Positions 1,718 through 32,578 of a stretch of 32,578 nucleotides of DNA are shown piece after piece. Source of the stretch: Sulfurimonas sp. (GTDB lineage Bacteria; Campylobacterota; Campylobacteria; Campylobacterales; Sulfurimonadaceae). The position numbers and the translations under genes are program-made. The notes under the pieces are model-generated. The model saw nothing but the letters and a program-made list of their open reading frames with translations. It was not told the origin of the DNA and made no database searches. Position 1 is the first letter of the stretch, and each line of letters starts with the position of its first letter. The stretch lies in NCBI GenBank assembly GCA_002899765.1, contig PPDH01000024.1, positions 1 to 32,578 on the forward strand, read 5' to 3'.

Positions 1718-3016
1718 ATGAATAATTTAGAGTTAAAAAAGAGAGACTTGGAAGTTTTGTGGCATCCATGTACGCAGATGAAAGACCATGAAACATTACC
1801 TCTTATCCCGATAAAAAAGGCGCATGGAGTCTACTTGGAAGATTTTGAAGGCAACTCTTACATAGATGCCGTTAGCAGTTGGTGGGTCAATCTATTTGGA
1901 CATACAAACAGCTATATAAATGAAAAAATAAAAGAACAGCTAGATACTCTAGAACATGTGATTTTGGCGGGATTTACGCATGAGCAAGTTGTGAGACTCT
2001 CTGAGCGGTTAGTAGGGTTAACTCCGGAGGGGCTAGAGAAATGTTTCTATGCCGACAATGGTTCAAGTGCCGTTTAAGTTGCACTAAAGATGAGTTTTCA
2101 TTCGCATAAAAATAGCGGAGTGGAGAAAAAACTTTTTGTATCTTTGACTAACTCATACCACGGTGAAACAATAGGTGCGCTTAGTGTGGGCGATGTAAAA
2201 CTCTACAAAGACACTTATGAACCGCTTCTTATCCAAACTGTTCAAACACCTGTGCCAAAAGACATGAGTATAGAATCGGCTAAAGAAGCTGCTTTCATGT
2301 TTGAAGAGTTATGCAAAGAGAGAGCGGATGAGATAAGCGCTATTATACTTGAGCCGCTTGTTCAGGGTGCAGGATATATGCACATGTATCATAAAGAGTT
2401 TTTAGTTTTGGTGCGTGGTATTTGCAACAAGTACGATATTCACATGATTGCCGATGAAGTTATGGTCGGTTTTGGAAGAACAGGGGAGATGTTTGCATGT
2501 CAGAGTGCCGACATAACACCAGATTTTCTTGTACTTTCAAAAGGACTTACCGGCGGTTATCTGCCGCTTTCAGTCGTGCTGACAACAGATGAGATATATG
2601 CCAGGTTCTATTGTGAGTATAATGAGCATAAAGCATTTCTGCATTCACACAGTTATACCGGAAATGCGCTTGCATGTGCAGCTGCAAATGCTACTCTTGA
2701 TATTTTTGAGAGAGATGGCGTGATAGAAAAAAACAGAGAAATTGCTAGATATATGGGTAAAAAGCTTTTGAAGTTTCAAGAGCTTCAAAACGTCGCTTCG
2801 ATTCGCCGCACAGGTATGATCTGCGCTGTTGAACTAAAGGGATATAAGTCTCATGAGAGAATAGGGCTAAAAGTATATCAATACGGTCTTAACAACGGTG
2901 TGCTGCTGCGCCCGCTTGGGCATGTCGTCTATTTTATGCCGCCGTATATTATCACAAAAGCGGAGTGCGATAAGATGATGGACACTGCTTATGAGGCTAT
3001 AAAGAGCCTGTTTTAA
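1718..3016 (+). pseudogene. bioA: bioA, adenosylmethionine-8-amino-7-oxononanoate aminotransferase, interrupted by in-frame TAA
   Basis: BioA is a PLP enzyme that makes 7,8-diaminopelargonic acid from KAPA in biotin synthesis. The N-terminal fragment (1718-2077, 119 aa) has the [11 protein letters not shown] start and [10 protein letters not shown]. The C-terminal part (ORF from 2090) has SYHGETIGALSVGD, DEVMVGFGRTG and the PLP lysine in LSKGLTGGYLPL. Both parts are in the same frame, separated by a TAA at 2075-2077. Reading through gives SSAV-X-VALKM, where the family has Glu (AVEVALKM), so a GAA to TAA change is the simplest explanation. Everything else is intact and the total of about 432 residues is normal for BioA. 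Without readthrough or reinitiation at the ATG at 2090, the product would be a dead N-terminal fragment. The stop codon overlaps that of the convergent gene (shared TTAA). Confidence 0.9.
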
Positions 3017-3603
3017 TCAAAAACAGAGTCATTTTTTGTATTGTCTAGCAGAAGAAGTCTGCAGCTCTTCTCCAATATGGCAATTTTTTTTGCCATTTCA
3101 TGAATATCTCTGTTAAAAGTATAGACTCCATAGCCTCTAATTACCATGATGTCTGTTTTTTTACTCTGAAAATAGTAAGCGATTTCGCTGCTTGCTCTAT
3201 CATACCAATCGTCAAAGCTTCTGGGGTCAACTATCTCTATGGAGCCTAACTCTCTGTATCCGAAATAATCTTTTGGCGTAATGATATTGTGGTCAAGAGA
3301 ATACGCCGTCGTAAAAGGCGGCATGCTAAAGCAGATAAATTTAGCATCTGAGATTTGTGAGTAAATGCTGTAGTGAATATTTGAGTCAATACTGGCTTGA
3401 TTCCATCTATAATCTTTTTTGTAGTAAAGCTCAATCAGGCTGCTGCTATCAAGTGCGTCAAATATTGCCTCTTTTGTATTTATGATAAATCTGTTTGATT
3501 CTGTTTTAGCTGAGATGGAACCGTGGTAGATACCGAAGAAATCCTTTCTAAACATGGATAAGGATAATGCTGAGAGTTTATTTTTTAGATTTTCTTTATT
3601 CAT
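3013..3603 (-). CDS. Class II aldolase/adducin-fold protein lacking the usual metal-binding histidines
   Basis: A 196-aa cytoplasmic protein whose outline matches the class II aldolase/adducin domain. A GSISAK motif at 28-33 corresponds to the phosphate-binding GNxSxR loop, IHYSIY lies at 77-82, a PPFTTAYS segment at 95-102 corresponds to the family's HxHxPYATA, and MVIRGYGVYTF at 153-163 corresponds to LLRNHGVVT. In canonical members three histidines bind the catalytic zinc (HxH plus the NHG histidine). Here those positions read F92, M94 and Y158, so metal-dependent aldolase chemistry is doubtful. The frame is clean and undamaged, which suggests a conserved non-metal role and not decay. It is convergent with bioA, with overlapping stop codons, and transcribed from the gap at 3604-3671. 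Confidence 0.6.
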   Translation of the reverse strand: MNKENLKNKLSALSLSMFRKDFFGIYHGSISAKTESNRFIINTKEAIFDALDSSSLIELYYKKDYRWNQASIDSNIHYSIYSQISDAKFICFSMPPFTTAYSLDHNIITPKDYFGYRELGSIEIVDPRSFDDWYDRASSEIAYYFQSKKTDIMVIRGYGVYTFNRDIHEMAKKIAILEKSCRLLLLDNTKNDSVFD

Positions 3604-3671
3604 TTAGTTTACTCATATATTTTTGACATAAGTTTAACATAACTTTTTTGCTTTATTTGAAAATTTACTTT

Positions 3672-3702
3672 AAAACGACAGGGTTAATAGATTGTCTGTT
3701 TT
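3672..3702 (-). terminator. Probable rho-independent terminator of the HD-GYP gene
   Basis: On the minus strand AAAACAGACA pairs with TGTCGTTTT (one bulged base) around a 12-nt loop. The U-rich side forms the 3' arm, and the 5' arm overlaps the gene's stop codon. The stem is AT-rich and moderate in strength. The position directly after the coding sequence supports a terminator, but the U-tract is short. Confidence 0.4.
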
Positions 3703-6064
3703 AGTCTCTATACTTCTCTCTGATTTCTAAAAATTCATTGAGATTCTCTAGAAAGAGATTCATTAAGTTTGGATCAAAATGTTTCCCTTTTTGCTCCTCA
3801 AAGAACTTTAGTATCTCTTCAAGTTCCCACGCTTTTTTATAGACTCTATCGGCTCCTAGTGCATCAAAAACATCGGCGATGGCAACGATGCGTGCATAGA
3901 TATGAATATCTTCACCTGAAATTCCTCGTGGATAACCGCTTCCGTCATACTTCTCATGATGCTCATGGGCAATAGTTGCCGAAGCATTGAGAAGCGGTCT
4001 TTGTGAGCCGCTAAGAACTTTATATCCTATAACACTGTGCGATTTCATAATCTCCCACTCATGAGGTTCAAAAGAGCCAGGTTTTAGAAGGATGGCATCA
4101 GGAATAGCAACTTTTCCTATGTCGTGCATCGGAGAAGCATCTGCTATAAGCTCTGCTTCATTTTCACTAAGCCCTGCTTTAAGAGCTAAAATCCTTGCAT
4201 AATTTGCAACACGCCTTACATGATTTCCCGTCTCTTTGTTTCTAGACTCACCTATTTCTCCCATGCGAAAGATTATCTCTTGCTGTGTTTTTTCAATTTC
4301 TTGATGTATAAGTACAAGCTCTGTTACATCGCTCATAAGATGCAGATGCTCTATAATTTCGCAGTTGCTGTTTACTATAGGTATGATAGTTGTGTCCATA
4401 TAACATGGAGTTTTTTCTTTTGTGAGATTTTCAAACTGCATATGTACAACTTCTTTGTTTGCAAGCTTCTGTTTGACAATTTCGCAGTCTCCTTTTTCTT
4501 TATGCTTTTTATCTCTTAGCTCACTGCAATCCTTGCCAATTAGCTCATCTTTTGCATAACCGCTTTTTTTTGTAAACGTGTCGTTCACATAGGTGATGAC
4601 ATTGTTTGTATCGGTTCTTATGACGCTCCATGTTTCATTTATGGCATTTTCATACTCTTTTACTTGATGTCTGGCTTCCGTAAAATCAGCTGTTGTGACT
4701 CCAAGAGTATCTCTTATACGTTCTTTATCTTCTTGAAGTTCAGTAATATCGGTTCGTATAGCTATATACTCTATAACATTCCCGTCTTTATCTAAGATAG
4801 GGTTTATGAAAGCCTTCATCCAGTAGCTGGAGCCGTCTTTTGCAAGATTTTTGACCTCGCCGACCCATGGTTTTTTGAGCTTTTTGATGGTGTGCCATAT
4901 CTCTTTAAAGGTCTCTTTAGGCATATCCGGGTGGCGGATAATGTTGTGCGATTTTCCTAAAAGTTCCTCTTGAGAATAACCGCTAATGTCGCAAAAAGCT
5001 TTATTTGCATAACGAATAATTCCCTTAGGGTCTGTTTTTGAGACTATAAAACTTCTATCAACCGTTGTTTTATACTGCTCTAGAAGCATAAGAGAGTTTT
5101 CAAACTCTTCATTTAATATATGTGTAGATGAGAGAATTTTTTTAATGATTGTGCGCATAAGATAGATAAGTGCCGCTAAAAGTAATGCAAGAGAAAAAAT
5201 AACCAGCATAATGTTTTGATTTGCATTTTCTATTTTAAGGTTTATGGAATTTTGCAAATCTTCAAAAAGCCTTGCTTCTAGTGTTTGAAAAAGGTCTATG
5301 CTTCGCGTTGCCGTCTCAAACCACTTTGCTGCGTTAGGCATAACATCTGTATTTAAAGCCGTATCCATCATAGCGAACATCTCTTTTAGGGAGTCATGCT
5401 TAAGTGTAGTGTGATAAAATAAGAGAAGTTCCGGTTGCAGATGAAGTGTTTTTTCAAATCTATTTGTTTCAACATAATAAATTTTTAGAGACTCTTTTGT
5501 CTGTGAAAAATTTTTATGCGAAAGTGTTTTGCTTACTAAAGCTTCATGCAGCGTAGCTCTAATGCGTCCTAGTTGCTCCTTCGCCGAGGCTAGATAGCTG
5601 TATGCCTGTAAATAGTTTCTATCTTCGAGATTTTCTACCATTGTCGGCATAGTCTTTATATGGTCAAGAAGATATGAGATTTCTTTAGTATAGCTCTCTT
5701 TGGCTTGTGAGGAAGAGAGTTTAAGTTCATCTATATCTTCTCTTATTTTTGCAATGTTCTCTTTCAAGTAGGGAAATTTCTTAAGAGCCTTAAGTGCGTC
5801 ATCGAGATCTTTTCTGTTTTGAATAAACGGTAAACTTTTTTTGTTTTGTTCATCGGCAAGAAATCCGGTGCTGTATCCGCGTTCTCTTTGCATAAAATGC
5901 ACGACATCTGAGATTGATTTTGCCTCTGTAATCTGCTCTTTTGTTTTGTTAAGATTATCTTTGATGCTAAAATCATAAAAAACTCTTCCTATTGAGAGCA
6001 CTAAAATAATGGTTGTAGGGACAAGTGCCAAAAAAAGGAGTTTTGACTTTAGGTTAAGTTTCAT
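3701..6064 (-). CDS. Membrane-bound NIT-PAS-PAS-HD-GYP cyclic-di-GMP phosphodiesterase
   Basis: A 787-aa signalling protein. TM1 is at about residues 9-29. A periplasmic helical nitrate/nitrite-sensing (NIT) type domain covers about 45-280, with the diagnostic QRERG at 59-63. TM2 is at about 285-305. PAS 1 (about 335-445) carries IIRHPDMPKETF and GSSYWMKAFINPI, the pattern of Aer-type, often FAD-binding, PAS domains. PAS 2 lies at about 470-585. The C-terminal HD-GYP domain has MHDIGK (H647, D648) and HHEKYDGSGYP (702-712), so the residues for c-di-GMP hydrolysis are present. The protein probably couples nitrate/nitrite or redox state to c-di-GMP breakdown. That fits a denitrifying lifestyle, given nosZ elsewhere in the window, but the ligand is inferred. 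It appears to be a single-gene unit. Confidence 0.88.
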   Translation of the reverse strand: MKLNLKSKLLFLALVPTTIILVLSIGRVFYDFSIKDNLNKTKEQITEAKSISDVVHFMQRERGYSTGFLADEQNKKSLPFIQNRKDLDDALKALKKFPYLKENIAKIREDIDELKLSSSQAKESYTKEISYLLDHIKTMPTMVENLEDRNYLQAYSYLASAKEQLGRIRATLHEALVSKTLSHKNFSQTKESLKIYYVETNRFEKTLHLQPELLLFYHTTLKHDSLKEMFAMMDTALNTDVMPNAAKWFETATRSIDLFQTLEARLFEDLQNSINLKIENANQNIMLVIFSLALLLAALIYLMRTIIKKILSSTHILNEEFENSLMLLEQYKTTVDRSFIVSKTDPKGIIRYANKAFCDISGYSQEELLGKSHNIIRHPDMPKETFKEIWHTIKKLKKPWVGEVKNLAKDGSSYWMKAFINPILDKDGNVIEYIAIRTDITELQEDKERIRDTLGVTTADFTEARHQVKEYENAINETWSVIRTDTNNVITYVNDTFTKKSGYAKDELIGKDCSELRDKKHKEKGDCEIVKQKLANKEVVHMQFENLTKEKTPCYMDTTIIPIVNSNCEIIEHLHLMSDVTELVLIHQEIEKTQQEIIFRMGEIGESRNKETGNHVRRVANYARILALKAGLSENEAELIADASPMHDIGKVAIPDAILLKPGSFEPHEWEIMKSHSVIGYKVLSGSQRPLLNASATIAHEHHEKYDGSGYPRGISGEDIHIYARIVAIADVFDALGADRVYKKAWELEEILKFFEEQKGKHFDPNLMNLFLENLNEFLEIREKYRD

Positions 6065-6194
6065 AAATGTTCCATTTATATAAAGTATGTAAATTTTTTA
6101 TTTGTTTTAATAATTATAATACAATAAACTTAAATATTTTTTATCATTAAATATTTAAGAAATAATTCAGTTATTTCATTTTATTGAGTTACTT

Positions 6195-6222
6195 CTGCAA
6201 TAACGATGATTCGTCATTGCAG
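6195..6222 (-). terminator. Strong stem-loop downstream of dnaJ
   Basis: A 12-bp inverted repeat around a 4-nt loop (arms CTGCAATGACGA and TCGTTATTGCAG on the minus strand). The only imperfection is a G-U pair when read as minus-strand RNA, whereas the plus-strand RNA has an A-C mismatch. This orientation bias and the position 28 nt after the dnaJ stop suggest a transcript end or 3' stability element for dnaJ. No U-tract follows, so it is not a textbook rho-independent terminator. Confidence 0.45.
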
Positions 6223-6249
6223 CAAAAAATAGAGGAAGGGGAGGAAGTA

Positions 6250-7374
6250 TTACTTAAACCAGCTTTTCATCTTTTCGATGGCAGAGTCTAAAACACTCTC
6301 ATGAGGTTTTGATTCTATGCCAAAGGACTCTTGAAGTTTGCTTAGAAGCTCACGTTGTTCGTCACTTAGCTTTTTAGGGTAGGTAATGTTTACCTGCGCA
6401 ATTAAATCTCCATTGCCATGACCGTGAACATCATCTACTCCTTCGCCTCTAAAGAGAAACTGCTGCTTATCTTTTGTGCCGACATCAAGTTTTAGTTCCA
6501 GTTCTCCCGTTAGTGAAGGGATGGTGAGGCTCTCTCCTGCAACTGCCTGAGTGAAAAATACCGGAATTGCGATGTAGACATCATTTCCTTCTCTTTGAAA
6601 GTGTTTATCTGGTTTTACGTTAAATGTGACATATAAGTCGCCTCTTGTGCCTCGTTTACCGACATTTCCTTTTCCTGATACTCTAAGGCGGTTTCCATTG
6701 TCGATTCCTTTTGGAATTTTAATGGTTACACTGCTTTTTTCTTCATGGTAGCCTTTGCCATTACAGCTATTACAAGGCGCTGAGGGCGCAGAACCGCTTC
6801 CGTTACAAACAGGGCAGGTTTGAGAAAATGTCATAAATCCCTGTTTCATAAAGACTTGTCCTTGCCCCCTGCATTGACTACATGTAGAGAGTTTGCCGTC
6901 TTTTGCACCCGTGCCTTTGCAGCTGTTGCAAGAGTTTTTGTATTTGAACTCTATATCTTTTTCGCATCCAAATACTGCTTCGTTGAAACTTATGGTCATG
7001 TCAACATTCATATCAAGCGGGTACTTCTCCATGTCGGCAGGATTTTGACGTCGGCGTGACGAACCTCCAAAACCGTTAAACATCTCTTCAAAGATTGAGC
7101 CTAAATCATCAAATCCTGCAGATGAACGGCCTCTACCGCCGCCCATTCCCTGCAGACCCTCTTTGCCGTATCTGTCGTAAATACTTCTTTGTTTATCGTC
7201 GCTTAGACATTGATAGGCTTCGTTGCATAGTTTAAATTTGTGTTCGGCTTCACTGTCACCCGGATTTTTATCGGGGTGATATACTTTTGCCATTTTTCTG
7301 TAAGCTTTTTTAATAGTAGTTTGATCTGCGTCTCTTGAGACTTCCAATATTTCGTAATAGCTTAAATCCTGCAT
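6250..7374 (-). CDS. dnaJ: Chaperone DnaJ (Hsp40), type I
   Basis: A 374-aa co-chaperone that delivers unfolded proteins to DnaK and stimulates its ATPase. The J domain is at 1-70 with HPD at 33-35. It is followed by a Gly/Phe-rich region (about 72-108, including GGGRGRSS and NGFGG) and four CxxCxGxG zinc-finger repeats starting at C149, C165, C187 and C201. The C-terminal substrate-binding domains contain [14 protein letters not shown] and [15 protein letters not shown]. All domains are intact and the length is normal. The gene stands alone here, without dnaK or grpE. I see no CIRCE or HAIR heat-shock operator in the short upstream region. A TATAAT box is present at 7411-7416 on the minus strand. 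Confidence 0.97.
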
Positions 7375-7410
7375 ATTATTTTAATATCCTCATCACTTAA
7401 TATTTTTGCA

Positions 7411-7416
7411 ATTATA
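7411..7416 (-). promoter_or_regulatory. Likely -10 box for dnaJ
   Basis: TATAAT on the minus strand, about 36 nt upstream of the dnaJ ATG, in the 76-bp gap between dnaJ and mltA. No clear -35 is seen, which is usual for Campylobacterota sigma-70 promoters. A GAGGAT ribosome site lies between it and the start codon. Confidence 0.5.
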
Positions 7417-7437
7417 ACGTTTTAAATTTAATCTATG

Positions 7438-7443
7438 TATAAT
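7438..7443 (+). promoter_or_regulatory. Likely -10 box for the mltA-recR-mlaAC-RND cluster
   Basis: A perfect TATAAT ends only 7 nt before the mltA ATG at 7451, and no Shine-Dalgarno sequence lies between them. If used, transcription would start within a base or two of the ATG and give a leaderless mRNA. Confidence 0.45.
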
Positions 7444-7450
7444 CCTCTTT

Positions 7451-8542
7451 ATGAAACATTTTGCACCCTATTTAACCCTGTTTTTACTATTTGCGGGCTG
7501 TTCCAAAGAGCCTCACGTAACTTTTTCAAATATGCCTCATACGCATCTTATTAAGAGCGATTTTAGTGAGCTTCCAAATTGGAGTCAAGAGGATTATGAA
7601 AATGCGCTAGAGTCGTTTGTGCGCAGCTGTAATACGGCTAAAACAAGAGAAATTTACGCTGACTTGTGCATAAAAGCCTCTGATGCCGTCGATGCGGAGA
7701 TATTTTTAACAACCCATTTTTCTCCATATAAAATCGATTCACTAAACGATTCGCAAGACGGACTTTTAACAGGGTATTACGAACCTCAAATCAAAGGCTC
7801 GCTAACTAAAAAAGAGCCATATATCTACCCTGTGTACGCCACGCCAAAAGATTTGTTGGTCGTTGATTTGAGCGAGCAATATCCTGAATTAAAGGGTTAT
7901 AGGTTAAGAGGCAGGATGGTTGGAAATAGAGTCGTTCCCTATTATGATAGAGAAGATGCCAATATAACTCCGCTTGAGAGTGAAATTCTATGTTATACCG
8001 ATTCAAAAATAGACCTCTTTTTTTTAGAGGTTCAGGGTTCGGGGAGAGTAACGCTTGATGACGGCAGTACGATATTTGTCGGTTATGATAATCAAAATGG
8101 ACACAGGTATAGCTCAATAGGAAAGTATCTTGTTAGTATCGGTGAAATAACCTTGGAAGATGTTTCGCTTCAAAGTATAAAAGCGTGGTTAGAGCAAAAT
8201 CCATCAAGAATTGATGAGGTGCTAAACTACAACAAGTCAATGGTTTTCTTTAGACAAAAAGCCAAACCTGCAAGCGGTTCACTAGGAGTTGTTCTTACGC
8301 CAAAACGCTCAATTGCGGTAGATAGAAGGTATATCCCTTTAGGAAGTATGCTCTATCTTAGCGCTAAGACAGAAGCAGTTGATTTTAATCATGTCGTTAT
8401 GGCCGAAGATACGGGCGGAGCGATAAAAGGCAGTGTAAGAGCCGATATATTTATGGGTTATGGAGAAGAAGCAAAAAAGATAGCAGGTGAATTAAAAGCG
8501 CCCTTAAAACTCTGGATACTTTTGCCAAAAGAGAGCTCTTGA
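7451..8542 (+). CDS. mltA: Membrane-bound lytic murein transglycosylase A (MltA)
   Basis: A 363-aa lipoprotein that cleaves peptidoglycan glycan strands to 1,6-anhydromuropeptides in the periplasm. The signal peptide ends in the lipobox LFAGC (C17 lipidated). GLLTGYYEP, FFLEVQGSGRV and the C-terminal 3D domain with AEDTGGAIKGSVRADIF are family hallmarks, and D320 in the EDTGG motif matches the catalytic aspartate. Length is normal. The start is the only ATG that gives a complete signal peptide, and it lies just after a TATAAT with no evident ribosome site. Its TGA overlaps the recR ATG by one base (TGATG), which indicates translational coupling. Confidence 0.95.
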   Translation: MKHFAPYLTLFLLFAGCSKEPHVTFSNMPHTHLIKSDFSELPNWSQEDYENALESFVRSCNTAKTREIYADLCIKASDAVDAEIFLTTHFSPYKIDSLNDSQDGLLTGYYEPQIKGSLTKKEPYIYPVYATPKDLLVVDLSEQYPELKGYRLRGRMVGNRVVPYYDREDANITPLESEILCYTDSKIDLFFLEVQGSGRVTLDDGSTIFVGYDNQNGHRYSSIGKYLVSIGEITLEDVSLQSIKAWLEQNPSRIDEVLNYNKSMVFFRQKAKPASGSLGVVLTPKRSIAVDRRYIPLGSMLYLSAKTEAVDFNHVVMAEDTGGAIKGSVRADIFMGYGEEAKKIAGELKAPLKLWILLPKESS

Positions 8543-9111: not shown

Positions 9112-9112
9112 T

Positions 9113-9904: not shown

Positions 9905-9906
9905 TA

Positions 9907-13069: not shown

Positions 13070-15741
13070 TTGAAATATATTATTGTTTCCCTGCTCGTTG
13101 CTTCACTTCTTCAAATTTTCTTATGGCTTGGCAACGAGCATAAATTTATTACTCCGCCCGATGCCGACAATATCATAGAATCTCTCTCGTATGCGCCCTA
13201 CAAAAAGGGAAATAAGAAAGAGATGCTTAGTGATGAAGAGGTGCTTAAAGATTTAATTCTATTAAATAAATTTACTAATAGTGTGCGCCTCTACTCTGCG
13301 GAAGATTCACGAAAAGTTATGCCGATAGTAAAAAAACTCGGCATGCAGGCGCACTTGGGTATTTGGCTTAGCGGTAATGAGCAAGATAATGAAAAAGAGA
13401 TGGCAGAGGCCAAAAGCCTCATCTCCGAGTATTATGACAACTTGCTATCTGTTATAGTCGGAAATGAGGTGCTGCTTCGCGAGGATTTGTAATCACATGA
13501 GCTAACTAGATATATCAGAGATATTAAAAGATTTGTTTATATCTTATTTAACGCTAAGAGAGATGCCAAAGAAAAAGCTATAAAAGATGAAATAGCTACA
13601 ATAAAAAACAAAAGAGAAAGAGCAGAAAAAGCAAAAATTCTTAGAGATGAACTTTTAAGGCAAAAAGAGCATGTAGTGCCTGTTACAACGGCAGATATTT
13701 GGAATACGTGGCTGCTTTATCCGGATTTGGCAGGAGAAGTTGATACTATAAATATCCATATTCTTCCTTATTGGGAAAAGATAAAAGCCGTGGATTTTGA
13801 GCCGTTTTTCAAAGAGACATATAAAAAAGTAAAAGATATGTATAAAAACAAACCTGTTACTATAGGAGAGTTTGGGTGGCCGAGTCAAGGATATAATAAT
13901 CAAGCTGCCGTGGCAAGCTCTCAAAATCAGGCAACCGTTATTAGAAGATTTTTACTTTTAGCAAAACAAGAGGGTTTTAGTTACAACTTGATTGAAGCGT
14001 TTGATCAGCCGTGGAAAGGCTCCGATGAGGGAAGTGTCGGGCAGTATTGGGGTATTTTTGATGCAAACCGCCACCAGAAATTTGAAATGCGCGGAGAAGT
14101 TCTTGTTGAGCCGTATTGGTTTATACAGATGGTTGCAGCTGCAATTATTGGGGCAATTTTAACTTTTTTTGGTCTTAGAAATCAAAACATCAATTTTTTA
14201 CATGCTTTTACCTATGGTCTTGCTGCGCAGGGTATCTCTTTGGTATCGTTATGTCGGCTGTTTATCCTTTTGTTCACTACATGAACTTCGGCACTTGGAT
14301 TATGTGGGGTATGGGTTCGATTCTTATGATACCTCTTACTCTCATTACCATGGCTAAGGCAAACGAGCTATTTAAATGTACAATAGGAAGGCGCCCGCAA
14401 AGACTTATCCCTCTTGATTTAAAGTCTGAGAGAGTTCCTTTTGTCAGTATACATGTACCTGCATACAAAGAACAGCCTGCAGTTTTAGAGGAGACACTTA
14501 TAGCACTCTCAAAACTAAATTATACTAACTATGAAGTTCTTGTAATTATAAATAATACGCCTGAGGAGTTTTATAAAGCACCCATAAAAGCTCTATGTAA
14601 AGAGCTTGGGGAGAGATTTGTCTATCTTGATATAGAGTGCAGCGGTTTTAAGGCGGGAGCGCTCAACAAAGCACTGGAGTTTACAAATCCCGAGTGTGAA
14701 ATATTAGCCGTAATTGATGCCGATTATGTTGTCAGTCCAAATTGGCTCATAGACTTAGTGCCGATTTTTGATGATCAAAAAGTCGCTTTGGTTCAAGCGC
14801 CACAAGATCACCGAGACGGAAATGAATCGCTTATCAAAACAGCAATGAACGCCGAATATGCAGGCTTTTTTGATATCGGCATGGTTGAGCGCAATGAAGA
14901 GAATGCTATAGTAGCACACGGAACAATGCTTATGGTGCGCAAAAGCGCTTTTGATGAAGTCGGAGCGTGGAATACCGATACGATAGTCGAAGATAGTGAG
15001 CTAGGGCTTAGACTTTTTGAAGCGGGTTATATCGGACACTATACAAACCGCAGATACGGGCATGGATTGCTTCCCGATACTATTGAAGCTTTTAAAAATC
15101 AGCGCCATCGCTGGGCATACGGTGCGGTGCAGATTCTAAAAAAACATTGGCAGCACTTTAAACCCTCATCCAAAACGCTTACACGTGCGCAAAAGCACCA
15201 TTTTGTCACGGGATGGTTTTTTTGGCTCTCCGACGCTCTGGGAACTCTCGCTTCGATACTCAATATCATCTGGGTTCCAGTTATTATTTTTGTAGGAGTA
15301 ACCATCCCGACAATCGCACTGAGTGTACCGATTTTAACAGCTTTTTTAGTAAATGTTATTCACTCTTTTGTGCTTTACAGGACAAGGGTAGGGGCAAATC
15401 TATATCACTCTCTTTTGGGCGCCATTGCCGCTATGAGCCTGCAGCTTATCATTTTTAAAGCGGTATATGATGGATTTGTAAAAGACAGCCTACCGTTTAA
15501 GAGAACAGAAAAAGGGGGCAACAGTAAAAAAAGCATAAACAGCCCCGTAAAAAATGAGATGATTTTAGCATCACTGATTTTAGGTTCGTTTGTGGCTCTT
15601 ATAGTGACAAATAAGCAGGGAATTATAGAAGTCTATGTTTTTTGTGCAACTATCTTTATCCAAAGCATCCCTTATGTCTCGGCGATTGTTCTTAGGATGA
15701 TTGAGAAAAGTTCTTATAAAAAAGTAAAATTGGAAAGATAA
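13070..15741 (+). pseudogene. GH17-GT2 membrane beta-glucan synthase (NdvB-like), broken by a stop and a frameshift
   Basis: One ancestral gene is now in three pieces. Piece 1 has an N-terminal TM (KYIIVSLLVASLLQIFLWLG) and the first half of a GH17 barrel, including VGNEVLLRED with the acid/base Glu; it ends at TAA 13490-13492. Piece 2, same frame, has VPVTTADIW, DTINIHILPYWE and IGEFGWPSQG with the nucleophile Glu, then TMs. Piece 3 is shifted by one base near 14239-14241 and holds a processive GT2 domain with VSIHVPAYKE, VIDADY, a VEDSELG box and QRHRW, then C-terminal TMs. The family resembles NdvB/BcsA-type beta-(1,3)-glucan synthases with an attached GH17 trimming or branching domain. 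The start chosen is a TTG with AGGAAG 4 nt upstream; an ATG at 13043 has no ribosome site. Reading TTTT instead of TTT at 14239 restores ISFGIVMSAVYPF. Confidence 0.82.
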
Positions 15742-16142: not shown

Positions 16143-18172
16143 ATACTACTCCGCTACACAGAAAATCGTTTGTATTTGTCGATGCGCATTTGGAGGATAT
16201 TCAAACCCTCTCTATGCATTTCCCTTATGAAGCGGAAATCTGTCTTCTAAGCAGTAATGAAAAACTTCTCTCTCAAATAGCAACACGGCTTGAAGGGCAT
16301 ACTGATGTTGCCAATCTTCATCTCATTACACATGGTCGTTCAGGTGAGATACTACTTGGAAAAAACGGTGTATCGTTAGAAACACTCCCGTTTTATGGCA
16401 AAGAACTTTTGACAATCAGTGATGCCATGAAGAAGAATGGCGAATGGTTTATTTATGGATGTGAAGTAGCCCTTGGCGAGAGAGGAGCAGCATTTGTCTC
16501 CACACTGCAAAATGTAACAGGACTTAAAATAGCAGCTTCTACGCACAAAGTCGGGCACTCTGAGTTTGGCGGAAGCTGGAAGCTGGATGCAGCGCCTGAA
16601 ATGATGGCAAATGTGCTTGAAGTGAGAGAGTGGAGAGGGGTATTAGCAGATCTTGTTAACGGTATGGGTGGAGATGACGGCTTTGGTGAAAATTCTTTTG
16701 CACGTAATGACGATGGAAATACAGATGCGATTGACATCACTTCCGTATTTGGTGAACAGTGATTAAAATTTGGCGATACATTTTACACAAGCACCTATAT
16801 TAATAACAATGGAATGATAACTTTTGGACAGGGATTTGGTGGATTTACTCCATCTGGAATTGAAGACGGACTTCAATCTGGCAGTGGCTATCTACCTCTA
16901 ATGGCGCTATTTTGGACAGATATTGACACTCGATATGGAGATGTTTCTCCATCTGCCGGTGGAAATTCAACAGGTTCTAATTTAGTTTACTATGATATTG
17001 ATACGGTTGATAGAAAAATTACCTTTACATGGGATGATGTTGGTCTTTATAGTAGTGGATCAGATTCTGCTTTGGCAGGTCAAATCATTCTTTACGATGC
17101 TGGTTCGGGCAATATGAACATTGAGTTTCGTTATGAATATGCCGGACTCTATGATGGGTATGAAGCGGCTGCCGGTTGGAATGTCGGGGTAAGCAGTAGT
17201 GATGGAGGGATTGACGGCATAGATTATTATCAGATTGCTGCACCGGCTGATTTAAGCTGGCTTGATACTACAGCAGGCAATACCGGCGAAGCAGGACTCT
17301 ATCGTTGGTATCTTCGTGATGGTTCGGTAAGCGATAGTGCAGGTTCAATCAGTTATGGTGTTAATACCTTTGTTGAATCTGCCAATAATGATGGTTCTAT
17401 CATAACAGCTATTACAATTACATTAGTCGGGGATACTTTTACAGGAAGTAATGGCGATGATTTTGTAGCTGGAAGTAAAGCTACGATTAGCAATGTTCCT
17501 ACTGGACTAACAGCGGTGATGACACGTATCAGTGACACAACAGCAACTTTGACACTAACGAGTAATGCAACAAATCACACTAATAATGAAGATATCGACA
17601 ATCTTACGGTAAGTTTTGAAAACTCAGCATTAACGGGGAATAATGCATCAATCATAAATAATGCTACCAGTCAAATTTTTAGGGTTGATTTTATAGAGGC
17701 TAGTAATACAGCGCCAACAGGCTTAGGCGATCTCATACTCACTGCCGTAGATGAAGATACAATAGCCCCGGCAGGTGTAGCTATTAATGCGTTAACTGAT
17801 TTAAATTTTACTGACGTGGATGGTGGCGATTCGCTAAGCGGCGTGGCTGTCGTAGCCAATACTGCCAATGCAGATACACAAGGCAGTTGGCAGTATAGTA
17901 CAAATGCGGGTAGTAACTGGTTTGATATAGGAAGTGTAAACAGCACTGAAGCACTTGCATTATCGAGCTCAACATTGGTTCGTTTTGTTCCTGTAGAAAA
18001 TTATAATGGTACACCTCCAACATTGAGTGTATATGCTATGGATAGCAGTGCTAATTATTTTAGTACGACAGGAGTAAGTGAAACACGAGTGACGTTGGAT
18101 GCCTCCAATAATGGTGGTGCATCTGCAATCGCTACAACAACGAATACTATAAGTACTTCTATCAATCCGCTA

Positions 18173-24575: not shown

Positions 24576-24631
24576 CAAGTGATATCGCAGAAAATGCAGT
24601 TATCTTAGAAAATAAATTTTAAGGAATTTAT

Positions 24632-25912
24632 ATGAATATTTATTTTGTTACTTCAAGATTTTTTGCTCTTATCGCTCTTACTTTTTTATTGTATGGTTTT
24701 GCTATTCCTTCTCTTGGTTTTCATGGTACTTTAGAGCGCATAAAAGACGGCAAGGCGGAAGATATACCTTCATACGTCTACCCTCTGTGGAATTTTTATC
24801 AAAAAGATAGATATTTTGGTGTTAATACCTCAAAAGAAGCAAAACATAATCTAAAAAAAATGATTGAATTTTCCGAAGAGATAGGTGTTCCTTCAATGCC
24901 TGTATGGAGTTTTTCTTTGGAGGCGCCAAACTATCCAAAAGAGGCATTTCCTCAAGGACTTCCCGTATTTATTCATTTTGACGGGTTAAGCGGTGAAGTG
25001 CATGAGATGGACACAATTAATCATTATGTCGGAATGGCATCCATGCAAAGAGGTGCTCCTTATGAACGTGCACTTGCTCCTTATGCACTTGTAATCGTTG
25101 CTTTGATATTTGTGCTGTTTATTTTTTACAACAATAAATGGATAAACAGATTTATGATTATTCCCATGCTGCTGCCATTTATGTTTATAGCCATTTATGC
25201 TTACTGGCTTTATTGGTTTGGACATAATCTTCATAGAGGTGCGATTACCATGGAGCCGTTTATGCCTGTTTTGCTTGGAGACGGAAAAGTGGCACAGTTT
25301 ACCACACACGCTTATCCAGCAGTCGGTTTTTGGCTGCTTGTGGCTGTTAGTATTTTCTCTTTTTTGGCTTGGTGGTTAAAAAAAAGAGGATTAAAAGAGC
25401 AGTCGTTAAAGAGGGCAACTTTTGTACATCACTCTTTTATGTTTGTTTTTTTATTGACAGCTCTGGCGTCAACCGCTTATTTACTTAAGACGGATATAGA
25501 AGTAAACAAGTTGGAGAAAATTGCTGAGCTTATTCATGTACCGGATTTAGAAACTTCGCTAAAAGCAGAGAGGGAAGAAGCTTTAGAGACACAGAAGCAG
25601 GAGATGCAAGAAGAGAGAGATGAGAAAAGAAAAGAGCAGGAGTTACAAATAAAAGCATTGGAAGAGAGAGCCGGAACTCTTGGAAAATTTAAAGTCAGCA
25701 AGATGTATAAAAGTAATTGTGCTCCATGTCACGGCAACAGTGGAGAGGGAAATTTCGGAACTAAGCTTATCGGGTTAAGCGAGGAGCATATATTGAAAAA
25801 ACTGCTTGAATTCAAAACAAATAAAGATGCAATTCATATAGAAACTATTGAATATCTCTCAGAAGATGATATAAAAAATTTAACCAAAGAGATTTCTCAA
25901 TTTGGAGATTAA
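24632..25912 (+). CDS. Multi-spanning membrane protein with C-terminal cytochrome c domain, next to nosZ (NosB-like?)
   Basis: 426 aa. TM1 at about 9-29, a periplasmic domain at about 30-145 (FPQGLPVFIHFDGLSGEV, INHYVGMASMQRG), four further TMs at about 147-166, 173-196, 228-248 and 267-286, a strongly charged coiled coil at about 305-348, and a mono-haem cytochrome c domain with CAPCH at 363-367. Histidines within or next to TM segments (H198, H201, H226, H266, H267) could bind haem or metal. It lies 45 nt upstream of nosZ in the same direction, so it probably feeds electrons to the N2O reductase. Clade II nos clusters usually carry nosB, a membrane gene of unclear function; this could be a NosB with an added cytochrome, but I cannot confirm homology. 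Start supported by AAGGAATTTATATG. Confidence 0.75.
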   Translation: MNIYFVTSRFFALIALTFLLYGFAIPSLGFHGTLERIKDGKAEDIPSYVYPLWNFYQKDRYFGVNTSKEAKHNLKKMIEFSEEIGVPSMPVWSFSLEAPNYPKEAFPQGLPVFIHFDGLSGEVHEMDTINHYVGMASMQRGAPYERALAPYALVIVALIFVLFIFYNNKWINRFMIIPMLLPFMFIAIYAYWLYWFGHNLHRGAITMEPFMPVLLGDGKVAQFTTHAYPAVGFWLLVAVSIFSFLAWWLKKRGLKEQSLKRATFVHHSFMFVFLLTALASTAYLLKTDIEVNKLEKIAELIHVPDLETSLKAEREEALETQKQEMQEERDEKRKEQELQIKALEERAGTLGKFKVSKMYKSNCAPCHGNSGEGNFGTKLIGLSEEHILKKLLEFKTNKDAIHIETIEYLSEDDIKNLTKEISQFGD

Positions 25913-25957
25913 CAAATAAAACAGTGATATGCTGTTCTTTATAAAGAGGAGATACTT

Positions 25958-28549
25958 ATGGTAAGAAAATATTTGAATATTGTAATAACACTCGGATTGC
26001 TGTTTGCAGCACAAACTGTTTTTGGCGAATCTGCATTTCAAACAATAATGAAAAAACGAGGATTAACTGAAGAGGATGCTCTTGCCGCAATAAAAGTTTA
26101 CAACCCCAGCGGCAAACATGATGAGTACTATGTTTTTGTAGGAGGAGGACAATCAGGACAAGTTTTGGTTTATGGGGTTCCATCTATGAGACCCTTGAAA
26201 TATATAGGAGTGTTTACGCCAGAACCTTGGCAGGGGTACGGTTTTGATACAGATTCAAAAGAGGTTTTGAGACAAGGAAATGTCAGAGGAAGAGAGATTA
26301 ACTGGGGAGATGTACATCATCCCGCACTCTCGGAGACGAATGGAAAATATGACGGAGAATACCTTTTTGTCAATGATAAAGCAAATGCCAGAATCGCAGT
26401 AATCGACTTAAAATATTTTGAAACTTCTCAAATAGTAGTGAATCCTATCTTCAAATCAACTCACGGAGGAGCATTTTTAACTCCAAATACTGAGTATGTT
26501 CTTGATACATGTCAGTATGCCGCACCTTTGACAAATGACTATTATCCTATAGAAGCGTATCAGGATGTTTATAAAGGCGGAGTAACATTTTGGAAGTTTG
26601 ATAGGAAAAAAGGAAAGATTCAACAAGAAGAGTCCTTTAGTTTAGAGTTTCCGCCTTATATGCAGGATTTAACCGATGTCGGTAAAGGTATTTCCTACGG
26701 TTGGGCATTTACAAATTCGATAAATTCAGAACTCTATACGGGAGGTATTGAAAAAGGTCTTCCTCCTTTTGAAGCAGGATGCAGCCGTAACGATACGGAT
26801 TTTTTACATATATATAATTGGAAAAAATTAGCGTTACTTGCAAAAGATAAAAAAAATATTAAAATAATTAACGGGCATAAAGTTATTCCTATAGAGGTGG
26901 CGGTAAAAAACAATGCTCTTTTTTTAGTTCCTGAAAATAAATCTCCTCACGGTGTAGATGTGAGTCCCGATGGCGGTTATATAATTGTTTCTGGTAAACT
27001 AGATACCCATGCATCCGTTTATGATTTTAATAAGATTATGAAGCTGATTCAAAACAGGGAGTTTGAGGGAAAAGATCTATATGGGATACCGATTTTAGAT
27101 ATGAAAAAATCACTCTATGGGCAGGTTGAACTTGGACTGGGTCATCTGCATAATACTTTTGGCAAGGAAGAGGGTTCTATCTACAGCTCTTTGTATGTCG
27201 ATTCTCAAGTCGTAAAATGGGATTTTAAAAAACTTAAAGTCATAGATAAAATCGGTATTCACTATAATATCGGACATATTGAGGCAATGGAGGGAAAATC
27301 TGCAGATCCGCAGGGATAGTATCTTGTTGCCATCAATAAGCTTGCTATTGACAGATTTTTGCCGGTCGGACCGCTGCATCCGCAAAATAATCAGCTTATA
27401 GATATCGGTGGAAATAAGATGAAACTTCTTTTAGATATGCCCATACCGCTTGTAGAACCGCATCAAGGAGCATCAATCAGAGCAAGTAAGATTCACTCTG
27501 AAGTCCGCTTTAAAACTGGAACAAACTCTAGAACGGGTGAGCCTCATGTCGGAAAAGCTCTTGCAGGTGAAGAGAGAGTTGAGCGAAAGGGAAATCATGT
27601 TTTTATTTATGCAACGGTAGTACGTTCTCATATCAACCCTGAGCGTGTCACGGTAAACAAAGGTGACCATATTAGTATGTATATTACAAATGTTGAGCGT
27701 GCTCAGGATGAGACCCACGGTTTTACGATTGACCACTTTAATGTACATACTTCACTTGAACCGGGTGAAACCACCCAAATCGATTTTATAGCGGATATTG
27801 AGGGTGTTTTTCCCTACTATTGTACAGAGTTCTGTTCCGCTTTGCATATAGAAATGATGGGGTATTTGTTGGTTAAAGATCCAAACAAAAATTATGAGTG
27901 GATTCAAAAATTAAAAATGAAAAGCCTCTCTGCCGAAGAACTACAGGTAGAATATAAAAAAATTACAGCCAGCAACAGTGCAACAGATGAGGTTATTCAA
28001 TCTCTTTTTGCATTTTTAGAAGAGAAAAAGTACAGTAAATATATAACGGTAAAAAATCTGGTAGACGATGCAAAAGATCAATATACAAAAATTGCTCTAG
28101 AGAAAGAGAAATCGGAAAAAGCATATCGGGAAAATAATTTGGAAAATGCTATTCTTTTTGAAAATATGGTATGGCAATACATGATAAAAACCGCAGATTC
28201 TGCTATAAGAGCCAAAGATCTTCTTATAAGCTCTATAGCCACGCCAAAATCAGAAACTGCCAAGAGAGGCGAGAGGGCATTTCGTGAAGGAGGTTGTTCA
28301 GGATGTCATGTTATCGGCAAAATAAGTTCAGGTCCGGATTTAATCGGTGTTCTTAAACGACATAGGAATGCGCAACAGTGGGTTGCTGAGTATATTAAAG
28401 ATCCACAAAGCAAGTTTAATGAACCATATATGAAAAAACTGATAGAGTTTTTTAATCTTAAAATGCCAAATCAAAACATGAGTGATCGGGAGATTAAAGA
28501 TATTATAGAATATTTTAAATGGATAGATGATAACGCAGATCTTTTTTGA
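25958..28549 (+). pseudogene. nosZ: nosZ, clade II nitrous-oxide reductase with C-terminal cytochrome c, in-frame TAG
   Basis: Reduces N2O to N2 in the periplasm. A Sec signal (about 1-23, no twin Arg) marks clade II. The beta-propeller carries CuZ histidines in DVHHP (118-122), FKSTHGGAF, SPHGVDVSPDGG and LGLGHLHNTF. The cupredoxin domain has the CuA motif CTEFCSALHIEM (C622, C626, H630, M633). The C-terminus has a cytochrome c with CSGCH (780-784), a known epsilonproteobacterial feature. A TAG at 27317-27319 (codon 454) interrupts DPQG-X-YLVAINK; homology continues at once in the same frame. A change from GAG (or AAG) would explain it. As written, the product lacks CuA and would be inactive. 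A good AAGAGGAG ribosome site precedes the ATG. No nosD, nosF, nosY or nosL follows; the next gene is convergent, 5 nt away. Confidence 0.93.
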
Positions 28550-28554
28550 TTAAA

Positions 28555-30144
28555 TTATTGAGAACTATGATTTGAATAAACCCTAAAATCTAAAAAATCA
28601 AATATGGAGTTTTTTTTGGCTATGTCAGTGAAAAACTTCTCATTAAAGTAGTTGTTCTCGAGCATATCTACAAGCTTGAAAAAGTTATATATATGCTCTT
28701 TTGTTCTGGCTGTGCTGTACTCTGCTGCCGTTTGCGTACTCATCAAAAAAGCCCAGTCGCTGCTTTGGGCAAGAAGCAGTTCTCTCGTCATTTGATTTAA
28801 AACTTTAGTTTGATGTTCGTTTGCGTTATAGTATTTGTCTGCATAGTAGCACATAGTATCAGCCATCTCATGAAGGTGTCTGTATATCCAGTCGTTTGAG
28901 TGATTCAGCCAAACATCAAAGTAGCCTTTATCTCCCCAAGATGAGGGGTGCGGAACCGCTTCTTGATTTTGCGGGTACATGTTTAGGTATTGCAGCGGAG
29001 TGATTGATTTTATGACTTTATGTTTTGAGATCTCTTTAAACATGTTGTATAAAAATTCAGGACCTTCAAACCACCAATGCCCAAAAAGTTCTGCATCGTA
29101 TGGAGATACTACAACGGGAAGCCTATCCATCATGGAGCAGACTTTGTTTATCTGTACCTCTGTGTTAAAGTGAAAATTCTGCGCATGTTCTATGGTTTTT
29201 TGTAGTGCGGCAGATGGGTCGTAAATCTCTTTGTAGTCGCTTTTCCCGGTAATTTTATAATATTTAAAACCTGTAAATATTCTTATGCCGTCGGGATTTA
29301 TATAATCTTTTATATACTCAAAATCAAGGTCATATCCGATATCACGGTAAAAATCACGATAAGAAAAGTCACCGGGATAACCCTCTTTTGAGCTCCAAAT
29401 TTGTTTGGATGATTTATGCTCTCTTGCAAATACCGCTACTTTGTTTGGTGTTACTATCGGCGCATATACACCGTTTTTCGGGGTTGGAGTCGCATAAAGC
29501 AAGCCATGAGCATCTAAAATAAAAAATTCAATCCCGTAACTCTTTAGTATTGCATCAAGTGAGTCATAATAGGCACACTCGGGAAGCCAGATGCCTTTTG
29601 GAGCTTTGTTGAAATGTTTTTTATGAGACTCTACGGCAACTTTTATCTGCGCTCTTACTGCTTGTTCATTTACCGATAACAGCGGTAAAAAACCGTGTGT
29701 CGCACCGCAAGTGATAATCTCTAAGACATTTTTGTCGTAAAAGTACCTGTAGCCGTTTAAAATCTTTCTGTCTAAAAAGCCTTCAAAAAACTCTTTAGTA
29801 CGGGTAAAAAAATCCAGATAAAATTTTGCGACATTATAGCTGTCGCTGTTTTTGGTTCTTATAAGCTCTTTTTCTCCCAGTTCTATAAGGTTTTTCAAAT
29901 AATTTTCATACTTTTGCATAAGATGTTCGTCATCAAGCATCTCCGCCAAAGGCGGAGTTACTGAGACGGTTAGGGCAAACTCTATCTCTTCTTCTTCAAG
30001 TTTTTTCAGTCTTTGCAAAAGCGGTATGTAGCACTCGGTAATAGCTTCAAACAACCAGCGCTCTTCTAGGAAATTTTCATGTTGTGGGTGTTTTACAAAC
30101 GGCAAGTGAGAGTGAAGGATTGGTATCCAGTATCCTTTTATCAT
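28555..30144 (-). CDS. GH57 1,4-alpha-glucan branching enzyme
   Basis: 529 aa. The GH57 family signatures are clear: ILHSHLPFVKHP at the N-terminus (H11, H13), GATHGFLPLL (148-155), KGIWLPECAYYDS with the probable nucleophile E189, and VVSPYDAELFGHWWFEGPEFL with the probable acid/base D350. Length and C-terminal helical region match the Thermus/Thermococcus GH57 branching enzymes, which make alpha-1,6 branches in glycogen. The start is supported by GGGAGG seven bases upstream, inside the end of the DUF4912 gene that directly abuts it. It is the last gene of a minus-strand alpha-glucan operon. Amylopullulanase-type GH57 activity is less likely given the WLPECAY motif. Confidence 0.9.
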   Translation of the reverse strand: MIKGYWIPILHSHLPFVKHPQHENFLEERWLFEAITECYIPLLQRLKKLEEEEIEFALTVSVTPPLAEMLDDEHLMQKYENYLKNLIELGEKELIRTKNSDSYNVAKFYLDFFTRTKEFFEGFLDRKILNGYRYFYDKNVLEIITCGATHGFLPLLSVNEQAVRAQIKVAVESHKKHFNKAPKGIWLPECAYYDSLDAILKSYGIEFFILDAHGLLYATPTPKNGVYAPIVTPNKVAVFAREHKSSKQIWSSKEGYPGDFSYRDFYRDIGYDLDFEYIKDYINPDGIRIFTGFKYYKITGKSDYKEIYDPSAALQKTIEHAQNFHFNTEVQINKVCSMMDRLPVVVSPYDAELFGHWWFEGPEFLYNMFKEISKHKVIKSITPLQYLNMYPQNQEAVPHPSSWGDKGYFDVWLNHSNDWIYRHLHEMADTMCYYADKYYNANEHQTKVLNQMTRELLLAQSSDWAFLMSTQTAAEYSTARTKEHIYNFFKLVDMLENNYFNEKFFTDIAKKNSIFDFLDFRVYSNHSSQ

Positions 30145-30639
30145 CTATTTGCCTCCCAGTAGAGTTGAAGTGTAGATTAAATCATCGCGCATGCTCTTTG
30201 GAGTGTTTTGTTGTGCGCCTATAATATTTGAGCTTGAGATATATTCAAGCTTGTTGCAGAGGTTTAAAAAGAGTTTTACATGTAAGGATTTGTGTCCTGA
30301 TTTGTGTCCTGATTTGTGATTTATGTAGTAATTGCCTATAGTAAGAGAGGAGCTAAACTCTCCAATCTCATGATTTGCTGCGTCAAGAAGTTTAAAAGAG
30401 AGTTGTACATTTTTTGGGTCGATACCGAATTTCTCAAGTGTTTTGTCCGTAATCTCCCAGTATACAAAGGAGCTGTTTGGATTTATAGGGAGTAGTACAA
30501 GTTTGTCTTTATTGTACTTTTGAGGAATCGGATGAGATATTGGACTCTCTTTTATAATTTTAAAATTTTTAATATTTTCGCCGGAGCTTTTGCAAATATG
30601 AGACAAACTTTGTGCAATCAAATCATCCGTAAAATTCAT
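30145..30639 (-). CDS. DUF4912 domain protein in the glycogen operon
   Basis: A 164-aa soluble protein. KDKLVLLPINPNSSFVYWEIT (about 45-65) is the DUF4912 signature, followed by a beta-rich region like a carbohydrate-binding or Ig-like module. DUF4912 proteins are often encoded beside GH57 branching enzymes and glycogen genes; their function is not established. A histidine-rich HKSGHKSGHKS stretch (about 108-118) comes from a 12-nt tandem repeat and is probably a variable surface loop. It follows the phosphorylase gene by 11 nt and directly abuts the GH57 gene. A role in binding glycogen or the branching enzyme is inferred from context only. Confidence 0.8.
   Translation of the reverse strand: MNFTDDLIAQSLSHICKSSGENIKNFKIIKESPISHPIPQKYNKDKLVLLPINPNSSFVYWEITDKTLEKFGIDPKNVQLSFKLLDAANHEIGEFSSSLTIGNYYINHKSGHKSGHKSLHVKLFLNLCNKLEYISSSNIIGAQQNTPKSMRDDLIYTSTLLGGK
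30287..30318 (-). repeat. 12-nt in-frame tandem repeat in the DUF4912 gene
   Basis: The unit GATTTGTGTCCT (plus strand) occurs about 2.7 times without mismatch and encodes repeated HKSG. Perfect identity suggests recent replication slippage that keeps the frame. Confidence 0.85.
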
Positions 30640-30650
30640 TCTCGGTTCCT

Positions 30651-32300
30651 TTAACTATCTTTATCATACATGTTAGCGTAATACTCATGTGCCATTCTGT
30701 CTGAATCAAAGGCATTAATGGTATCGAGCATAGAATTTTTCATAATGTTCACCCATTTTTTGCTATTTTCATAGTAGAGCGGAATAATCTCAGTGGATAA
30801 AATATTCATGAGGTTTGCATTATCTATAGAGTCCTGTTCCTCAATGGGCAATGTTGGGTCTGTTGCTGTGATTGTGAAGCAGTTGATGCCATGTTTTTCA
30901 AATTCAGGGTGCCATCCATCAAGCGTGGAGAGATTTACGGCACCGTTCATAGCAGCACTCATGCCGCTGGTTCCGCTTGCTTCTTTTGTAATTCTCGGGG
31001 TGTTTAACCAGATATCTGCTCCTTTTTTAAGCATCATTGATAAACTGAGTTCATATCCGACCAAAACAGCTACATTTTTTAGGTTGTTGCTTATGTAGTT
31101 TATTTCGTTAAAGATGTTTATGGCACCGTTGTCAAATGGATATGGTTTTCCTGCCCAGATAATTTGAACAGGCATCTCTTGATTTTCAACAAGTTCTAAA
31201 AACTTTTTCAAATCATATTTTAAGAGCCCCGGCCGCTTGTATTCTGCAAATCTTCTTGCCCAGACAATAGTTAAAATATTTGGGTCAAACATCTTGCCTG
31301 TTTGATTTGCCACTTCGTCAAAAAGTACTCTCTTTAGATGTTTTTTTCTGGCTTCAACCTCATAATCCTCATGTTCGTCAAGTGCCCTTAGAACTCCTTT
31401 ATCAGCCCAGTATCTTCTATTTTGAGCGTTTGTTATATGTATAATCTCAGATCTGTTTTGAACATGTGACCACATTTTGTTTGCTACTTTTGCATGAAGA
31501 AGTGAGACTCCGTTTGAGATTTTTGCGGCTTTTAGAGCACCGATTGTCAGATTGAAGATATCGCCTTTATTTCCCATAAATTGTTGGATTTAATCTATGG
31601 ATAACCCCGCAAAAAATCCCATTTTATGAAGCAGTGCCGTACTATGCTCTTCATTTCCTGCAGCTTCTGGGGTATGTGTCGTAAAAACTATTTTTTGCTG
31701 CAGTGCATCAAATGTTTTGCATTTTTTATATAACTCAAATACTAAAGGAAGTGCATGCCCCTCGTTAATATGATGGATTTTCGGCTTTATATGCAGTGCC
31801 TCAAGCACTTTGGCTCCTCCGATACCAAGAACAATCTCTTGCGCTATTATTGTCTCTTCATCTGCATCATATAGTTTATGGGTTATTGTTTTGCTCAAGT
31901 AGTCGTTATCTTCTATGTCAGTTGAGATAAGTATTATAGGAGCGGTGTTAAATATCTCGCTCTGTAGTAAAAAAGGCTTTACTTTAAGCGTTTTGGAGTT
32001 TATAACCACATCAACGCATAACTCTAAATCTTTAAGAAAGTAGTATTTTTTCCTTCTAAATTCTACTTTTAGGTTTCTGTCTTTATCTCTTGTCTGGTCA
32101 TAGTATCCATAGCTCCAGAGTATTCCGACACCTATCATGTTCTGCCCTAAATCATAAGCGCTTCTCATGTGCGAACCGGCTAAAAATCCAAGTCCTCCGC
32201 CGTAAAGTTTAAGTGCTTGATGTATAGCAAACTCCATTGAAAAGTATGCTACGCTTGTAGCGTATTTTTGAGTTATGTTGTAGGGTATAAAATTTGACAT
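30651..32300 (-). pseudogene. glgP: Alpha-glucan (glycogen) phosphorylase, GT35 short form, in-frame TAA
   Basis: Phosphorolysis of glycogen to glucose-1-phosphate. The N-terminal part (32300 down to 31590) has VAYFSMEFAIHQALKLYGGGLGFLAGSH in pieces typical of the TIGR02094-type phosphorylases, IHHINEGHALPL and VFTTHTPEAAGNEEH. A TAA at 31590-31592 follows GLSID; the same frame resumes with IQQFMGNKGDIFN and continues through WARRFAEYKRPGLL and KEASGTSGMSAAMNGAVNLS. A GAA to TAA change would explain the stop. Total length (about 549) is normal. At the position where related phosphorylases have the PLP-binding Lys (SGMK) there is Ser448 (AGT, 30957-30959), so catalysis may be altered; this may be a subfamily trait. 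AAAGGTTAGAG precedes the ATG, 2 nt after the glucokinase stop. Confidence 0.82.
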
Positions 32301-32302
32301 CT

Positions 32303-32578
32303 CTAACCTTTTGATACTATTTTCAGACCTTCTATACTAGCATTGTCAATATCTGAAACAGACATTTTTAATTCACTCCTGATTGTTTTAAAAGAGCTGT
32401 TATTGTACTCCTCTTTTAGAAAATCCAAAATAAACGGATTGTTTCTTACAACGCCGCCGCCTAAAATAAACAGATTAGGGAGCCGCTTGCAAATTCCACC
32501 ATCATAAACTAGTGAATTTGTAAACCTACTAAACTTATCAAGCAGATCTTTTAAACTTTTAATCATTTTACCGCTTTA
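32303..32578 (-). pseudogene. glk: C-terminal fragment of glucokinase (upstream part outside window)
   Basis: The visible ORF (ATG at 32566) encodes 87 aa containing LPNLFILGGGVVRNNPFIL, matching the late GGV-(V/I)-x-(K/R)-N segment of bacterial glucokinases, and ends IEGLKIVSKG. A glucokinase needs about 320 residues, so this is only the C-terminal quarter. A TAA in the same frame occupies 32576-32578 at the edge, so either the gene has an internal stop like its neighbours or the ORF start is an internal methionine after decay. Glucokinase next to a phosphorylase fits glucose salvage from glycogen. Family identification is moderate because the ATP- and sugar-binding N-terminal half is not visible. 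Confidence 0.55.

Follow-up and report, generated by a model that had tools for sequence, protein, structure and literature searches.

The stretch of DNA analysed here (the window) is a whole contig, C7, of 32,578 bases, in a Sulfurimonas sp. genome assembly of 2,390,858 bases in 45 contigs (completeness 98.48%, contamination 3.11%). Along it lie bioA, a GH17-GT2 gene, a gene for a DUF4347/NIDO/cadherin-domain protein, nosZ and a phosphorylase gene, and each of the five is interrupted by an in-frame stop codon (Table 1). The origin of such stops, in the window and in the rest of the genome, is the subject of this analysis. The closest named matches of nosZ are from Sulfurimonas and other Campylobacterota. 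Among 135 genomes of the genus searched with bioA DNA, the nearest were G104 (85%), G004 (82%) and G011 (80%, one contig).

Table 1. Stops and related features in the window.
Feature	Position	Strand	Comparison
bioA, in-frame TAA	2075..2077, in gene 1718-3016	+	GAA (Glu) in 9/9 distinct relatives; 22/22 entries, some genomes repeated
GH17-GT2, in-frame TAA	13490..13492	+	TCA (Ser) in nearest relative
GH17-GT2, frame -1, one base missing	14237..14242	+	Junction of high-scoring segment pairs at 14221-14242; DNA alignments to 5 loci of 4 relatives
DUF4347/NIDO/cadherin-domain protein, in-frame TGA	16760..16762	+	No close homolog to fix the ancestral codon
nosZ, in-frame TAG	27317..27319, in gene 25958-28549	+	GAG (Glu) in nearest relative
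Phosphorylase, in-frame TAA	31590..31592, in gene 30651-32300	-	GAG and GAA (Glu) in two nearest relatives
Contig-end repeat holding the 'glucokinase' TAA (32576-32578)	32480..32578	n/a	Recurs at starts of C10 and C36

A sequence-only reading had listed six in-frame stops in otherwise intact genes, and had noted that each could come from a first-position G-to-T change on the coding strand. Five are present, and their frames resume immediately after the stop. The sixth, at a glucokinase edge, falls outside the stop class because it is located inside a contig-end repeat. This repeat matches 95 bases of C10 and 91 bases of C36 at 100% identity, and ROK-family homology starts only past it. The repeat interrupts the ROK (glucokinase) gene at the right edge of the window.

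The first-position change is borne out for bioA, where the conserved residue is Glu as had been said, and for nosZ and the phosphorylase, with Glu in their nearest relatives. At the GH17-GT2 stop, on the other hand, the likeliest change is a second-position C-to-A, because the nearest relative has TCA; the residues there are Ser 5, Lys 2, Asp 1 and Glu 1 in nine entries, with G011 entered twice. The direction is therefore shared only as the class G:C-to-T:A, since at one of the four window sites that can be decided the coding strand shows C-to-A. At the phosphorylase stop, homologs at looser identity have a mixture of Glu, Thr, Lys and Ser (10 entries). For the DUF4347 protein, all 137 matches to plasmid records were below 60% identity.

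The GH17-GT2 gene is not otherwise intact, as it also lacks one base, which is the sole frameshift junction found in our sample of this genome. None of the aligned relatives has a stop at the same place as the window does, and no internal stops appear in the full-length homologs that relatives have of bioA, nosZ, the phosphorylase and GH17-GT2. An exception among the GH17 homologs is a weaker paralog in G023, which carries a TGA.

The search was then widened to a sample of 720,656 of the 2,390,858 bases, which was compared with the gene sets of relatives; homologs covered 268,803 bases (~269 kb) of it. Detecting interrupted genes from their codon usage, with no reference, had been dropped as too noisy in favour of homologs, and a homolog pass with all open reading frames (ORFs) was likewise dropped, as antisense shadow ORFs dominated it, in favour of non-overlapping gene sets. 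In the covered bases 33 raw in-frame stops were found, and 23 were kept as interior and well aligned. At the kept stops relatives have Glu (15), Ser (6) or Gly (2), and all 23 can be explained by G:C-to-T:A. Random G:C-to-T:A changes on both strands would give Glu 12.9, Ser 3.5, Gly 3.5, Tyr 2.5 and Cys 0.7, close to what was observed. By coding strand, 17 are G-to-T and 6 are C-to-A, where ~16:7 is expected from the opportunities. Coding-strand G-to-T alone, as had been proposed, is thus too narrow; genome-wide the class is G:C-to-T:A on either strand.

The stops are evenly spread over the sampled stretches (p = 0.645). Over all aligned codons their rate is 23 in 10,565 opportunities, or 0.22% per site, which extrapolates to ~1,900 changed bases and ~200 stops genome-wide. 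When the same search was performed in G011, G104 and G004, raw stops numbered 10 in 286,955, 4 in 98,760 and 1 in 207,877 covered bases, respectively, and none of these 15, in 593,592 covered bases together, is an interior stop in a real gene. Of the 15, five stem from a single ORF that runs antisense to nosZ, and the other 10 fall in the first 52 or last 20 query residues. Set against these, the stops of the present genome are more than chance would give.

The genes broken by stops, named through the intact copies of relatives, include gyrB, typA, uvrA, rpoD, ligA, nuoG and lysS, as well as a hydrogenase small subunit, a cobA-like and a dam-like gene. gyrB and rpoD each occur in one copy in the whole genome, and each contains an internal stop; what had been reported as another gyrB stop is the codon directly before the start of the gene. 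The copy-number check covered gyrB and rpoD. gyrB, rpoD, ligA and lysS are essential to cells. A cell with broken gyrB and rpoD could not live, and therefore the stops point to error rather than mutation.

To count changes by branch, a codon was taken as polarised when the two best relatives belonged to different genomes and agreed, which gave 13,290 codons. An unpolarised pairwise spectrum had been dropped, since a difference in base composition masked the small excess. On the genome's own branch, silent, missense and stop changes of the class G:C-to-T:A number 137, 60 and 5, against 2,334, 327 and 0 for the other classes together. On the branch of the best relative, the corresponding numbers are 160, 29 and 0, against 2,647, 261 and 0. 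With no hand choice involved, all five single-change polarised stops are G:C-to-T:A (P = 0.0035 vs the neutral spectrum). A sixth polarised stop, TCT-to-TAA, takes two changes.

Missense changes of this class are expected at ~35 from the relative's share, leaving ~25 in excess. The polarised stop rate, 5 in 1,883 opportunities, predicts 29 missense and ~3 silent changes, and the all-codon rate of 0.22% predicts 24 missense. A single rate without selection thus accounts for both nonsense and missense, although the numbers are small. Silent changes on the own branch are not in excess (137 vs 160), and the ~3 predicted are too few for a test.

From these observations it is very probable that the stops are consensus errors, not inherited changes, and that ~0.2% of G:C pairs were read as T:A, most likely where guanine was oxidised and templates or reads were few. 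Oxidative damage in the DNA or library, a candidate of the sequence-only reading, gains support from the mutation class, the lack of visible selection, the even spread and the hits in essential single-copy genes. A consensus error from oxidised guanine is expected to show just such a G:C-to-T:A class, unselected and alike on both strands. Oxidation as the cause is what we infer as most likely from the class, its presence on both strands, the even spread, the unselected missense excess and the single-copy gene hits. Guanine would have been oxidised in the sequenced DNA, and 8-oxoguanine would pair with A on copying, so that G:C is read as T:A. With few template molecules or reads per position, the error would become fixed in the consensus, so thin coverage or a small number of templates probably played a part as well. 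The assembly alone does not separate oxidation of the library from oxidation of the sample before extraction.

Several observations weigh against this interpretation. The 23 stops were hand-chosen from 33 raw ones. Dropped were L052 8327 (Ser, weak local identity), L153 3349 (Thr, residue 25), L161 3862 (Gln, 70 of 92), L166 720, 741 and 771 (Gln, query residues 21-38, with stops at residues 31 and 38 in G104 too), L169 6142 (Tyr, residue 33), L169 16938 (Gln, weak) and window positions 26317 and 26428 (antisense ORF). With three arguable rows restored (L052, L161 and L169 16938), 24 of 26 are G:C-to-T:A; counting two weak Gln cases, 23 of 25 are (P = 4e-10, a value resting on the hand-made set). 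The polarised set, which is free of hand choice, holds only five single-change stops, all of them coding-strand G-to-T. Ordinary divergence accounts for more than half of the polarised missense changes in this class, and because of this the sequence context gives no fingerprint of the chemistry. Around 87 events, many of them ordinary divergence and with some genomes counted twice, there is a mild excess before A or G and a deficit after G.

At the nosZ stop, relatives are split between Lys and Glu (Lys 12, Glu 10 and Asp 1 in 23 entries, some genomes more than once), and the presumed ancestral codon is that of the nearest relative. The stop rate does not differ with contig size (21/5,955 vs 11/4,610 opportunities for raw stops, p = 0.37), and this offers nothing in favour of thin coverage specifically. 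Finally, MutY and MutM seem to be missing from this genome and from part of its clade, which would favour the same class of change in life.

This last point leads to repair. With the MutY profile TIGR01084, only short, endonuclease-III-like matches were found in this genome, likewise in G004 and G011. Matches of at least 263 bits occur in 13 of 31 genomes (the present one included in the set), and G042 has a match split over two contigs; the search covered genomes other than G104. Full-length MutY is thus patchy in the genus. The MutM profile TIGR00577 matched 0 of the 31 genomes, while control matches were obtained in 8 of 14 well-known genomes. In a review table with flattened columns, both Campylobacter jejuni and Helicobacter pylori appear to be marked for mutY but not mutM (PMC2734928). 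Judging from these profile searches, some members of the clade may have weakened 8-oxoguanine (GO) repair.

A heritable mutator, in which G:C-to-T:A mutations build up without MutY and MutM and genes decay, would draw on exactly these absences, as its class is that of GO-repair loss. It is nevertheless very improbable, and the mutY/mutM mutator lineage suggested earlier is not supported. G004 and G011 also appear without full-length MutY, yet they have no interior stops, so that the loss is not specific to the affected lineage. Stops in the sole copies of gyrB and rpoD already contradict a mutator, and ligA and lysS are hit as well. Nonsense and missense follow a single rate without selection, and the own branch lacks a silent excess, though little excess was predicted. 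A related idea is that the oxidised guanines were already present in living or dormant cells, with a Campylobacterota clade without MutM and full-length MutY keeping a standing load of 8-oxoguanine. We consider this improbable. If it were true, sequencing a few cells would read the load as genome-wide G-to-T, and the assembly would amount to a record of natural damage that had escaped repair.

The errors have a technical character under any chemistry, and a source of G:C-to-T:A other than oxidised guanine (polymerase or amplification, base calling, polishing) is an unlikely but still appreciable alternative. Deamination should produce C-to-T stops in place of Gln, Arg and Trp, and only two weak interior Gln cases were seen. 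Depurination would give A-to-T stops at Lys and Arg too, but by the best relative the 33 raw rows contain no such case. With long-read error frameshifts would be expected, and only one junction was found in the covered sample; because of this single junction, the read type was not indel-prone. A base-calling error linked to methylation would go with a sequence motif, and no single motif was found at the stops or in the wider set of 87 events. Oxidised guanine is preferred over deamination, depurination and long-read error because the changes are of the G:C-to-T:A class, while C-to-T, A-to-T and frameshifts are rare or absent.

Genuine pseudogenes in a decaying genome with expanding mobile elements could be argued from an element of ~200 bp whose left arm occurs 19 times in the sample, from other contig-end repeats and from the one frameshift. 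A single mutation class, no frameshift load and hits in essential genes make this extremely improbable. Next to no weight is given to stop codons being read through or reassigned. The genes do resume in frame and remain conserved past the stop, but TAA, TAG and TGA stand at Glu, Ser and Gly positions, which is not one stop with one meaning, and missense changes of the same class accompany the stops. The suppressor tRNAs that the sequence-only reading had thought worth checking did not turn up; no tRNA with a stop anticodon was found among 40 tRNA genes (ARAGORN), a set that is incomplete, as Ala and Ile tRNAs are missing. tRNA genes were also tried as a test of G-to-T, but only 16 of 32 distinct tRNAs had a comparable relative, several of these to the wrong isoacceptor. 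A strongly divergent tRNA-Glu(TTC) gene (44.9 bits) was noted at L052 4263-4338 (contig C5), inside a Lys-Asp-Val-Glu-Val-Asp cluster; two other tRNA-Glu genes lie elsewhere in the genome.

Consensus errors from oxidised guanine have partial counterparts in the literature. Internal stops have been described as assembly artefacts that become more frequent when read quality and coverage are low, low-quality reads raising them more than frameshifts (Cooley and Wright 2024, PMC11017572). As with those spurious pseudogenes, internal stops here lie in intact genes of a public bacterial assembly. Unlike there, they bear a single-class G:C-to-T:A signature, which the available passages of that paper do not describe, and 23 stops in 269 kb far exceed the 'at least one per million bases' expected there at 10-fold coverage or less. 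G-to-T and C-to-A artefacts from guanine oxidised outside the cell are treated in another paper, which cites Costello et al. and Chen et al. (PMC12390751). The changes here are of the same kind as those 8-oxoguanine library artefacts; the latter concern mismatches and variant calls in human exome reads, whereas ours are in an assembled bacterial consensus and were recognised without reads. GO-repair (MutM/MutY)-deficient mutators have the same mutation class, and MutM and full-length MutY were not found here, but the lack is common to clean relatives and indispensable genes are hit, so the changes are not heritable. No assembly with the same signature was recognised in literature searches, which does not prove its absence. 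In our judgement the artefact is of a known type, but its signature is unusually clean.

Despite its completeness rating of 98.48%, the genome appears to hold, by extrapolation, ~1,900 wrong bases and ~200 false stops. Claims of gene loss from this assembly, such as a lack of bioA or nosZ function, would be wrong. Single-class stops together with a missense excess that fits zero selection form a screen that needs only relatives, and it could flag damaged public assemblies.

Groups of contigs in this assembly end in shared repeats of ~90-100 bp, some of them insertion sequence-like (window 32480-32578; starts of L051, L061, L065 and L166). The ~200 bp element mentioned above resembles a miniature inverted-repeat transposable element, with ~22-bp terminal inverted repeats and 7-8-bp target duplications (for example at L051 4396, L062 15052 and L154 2656). 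In the 720 kb sample, 17 right arms accompany its 19 left arms, and 17 of the 21 short N-runs sit in the middle of the element.

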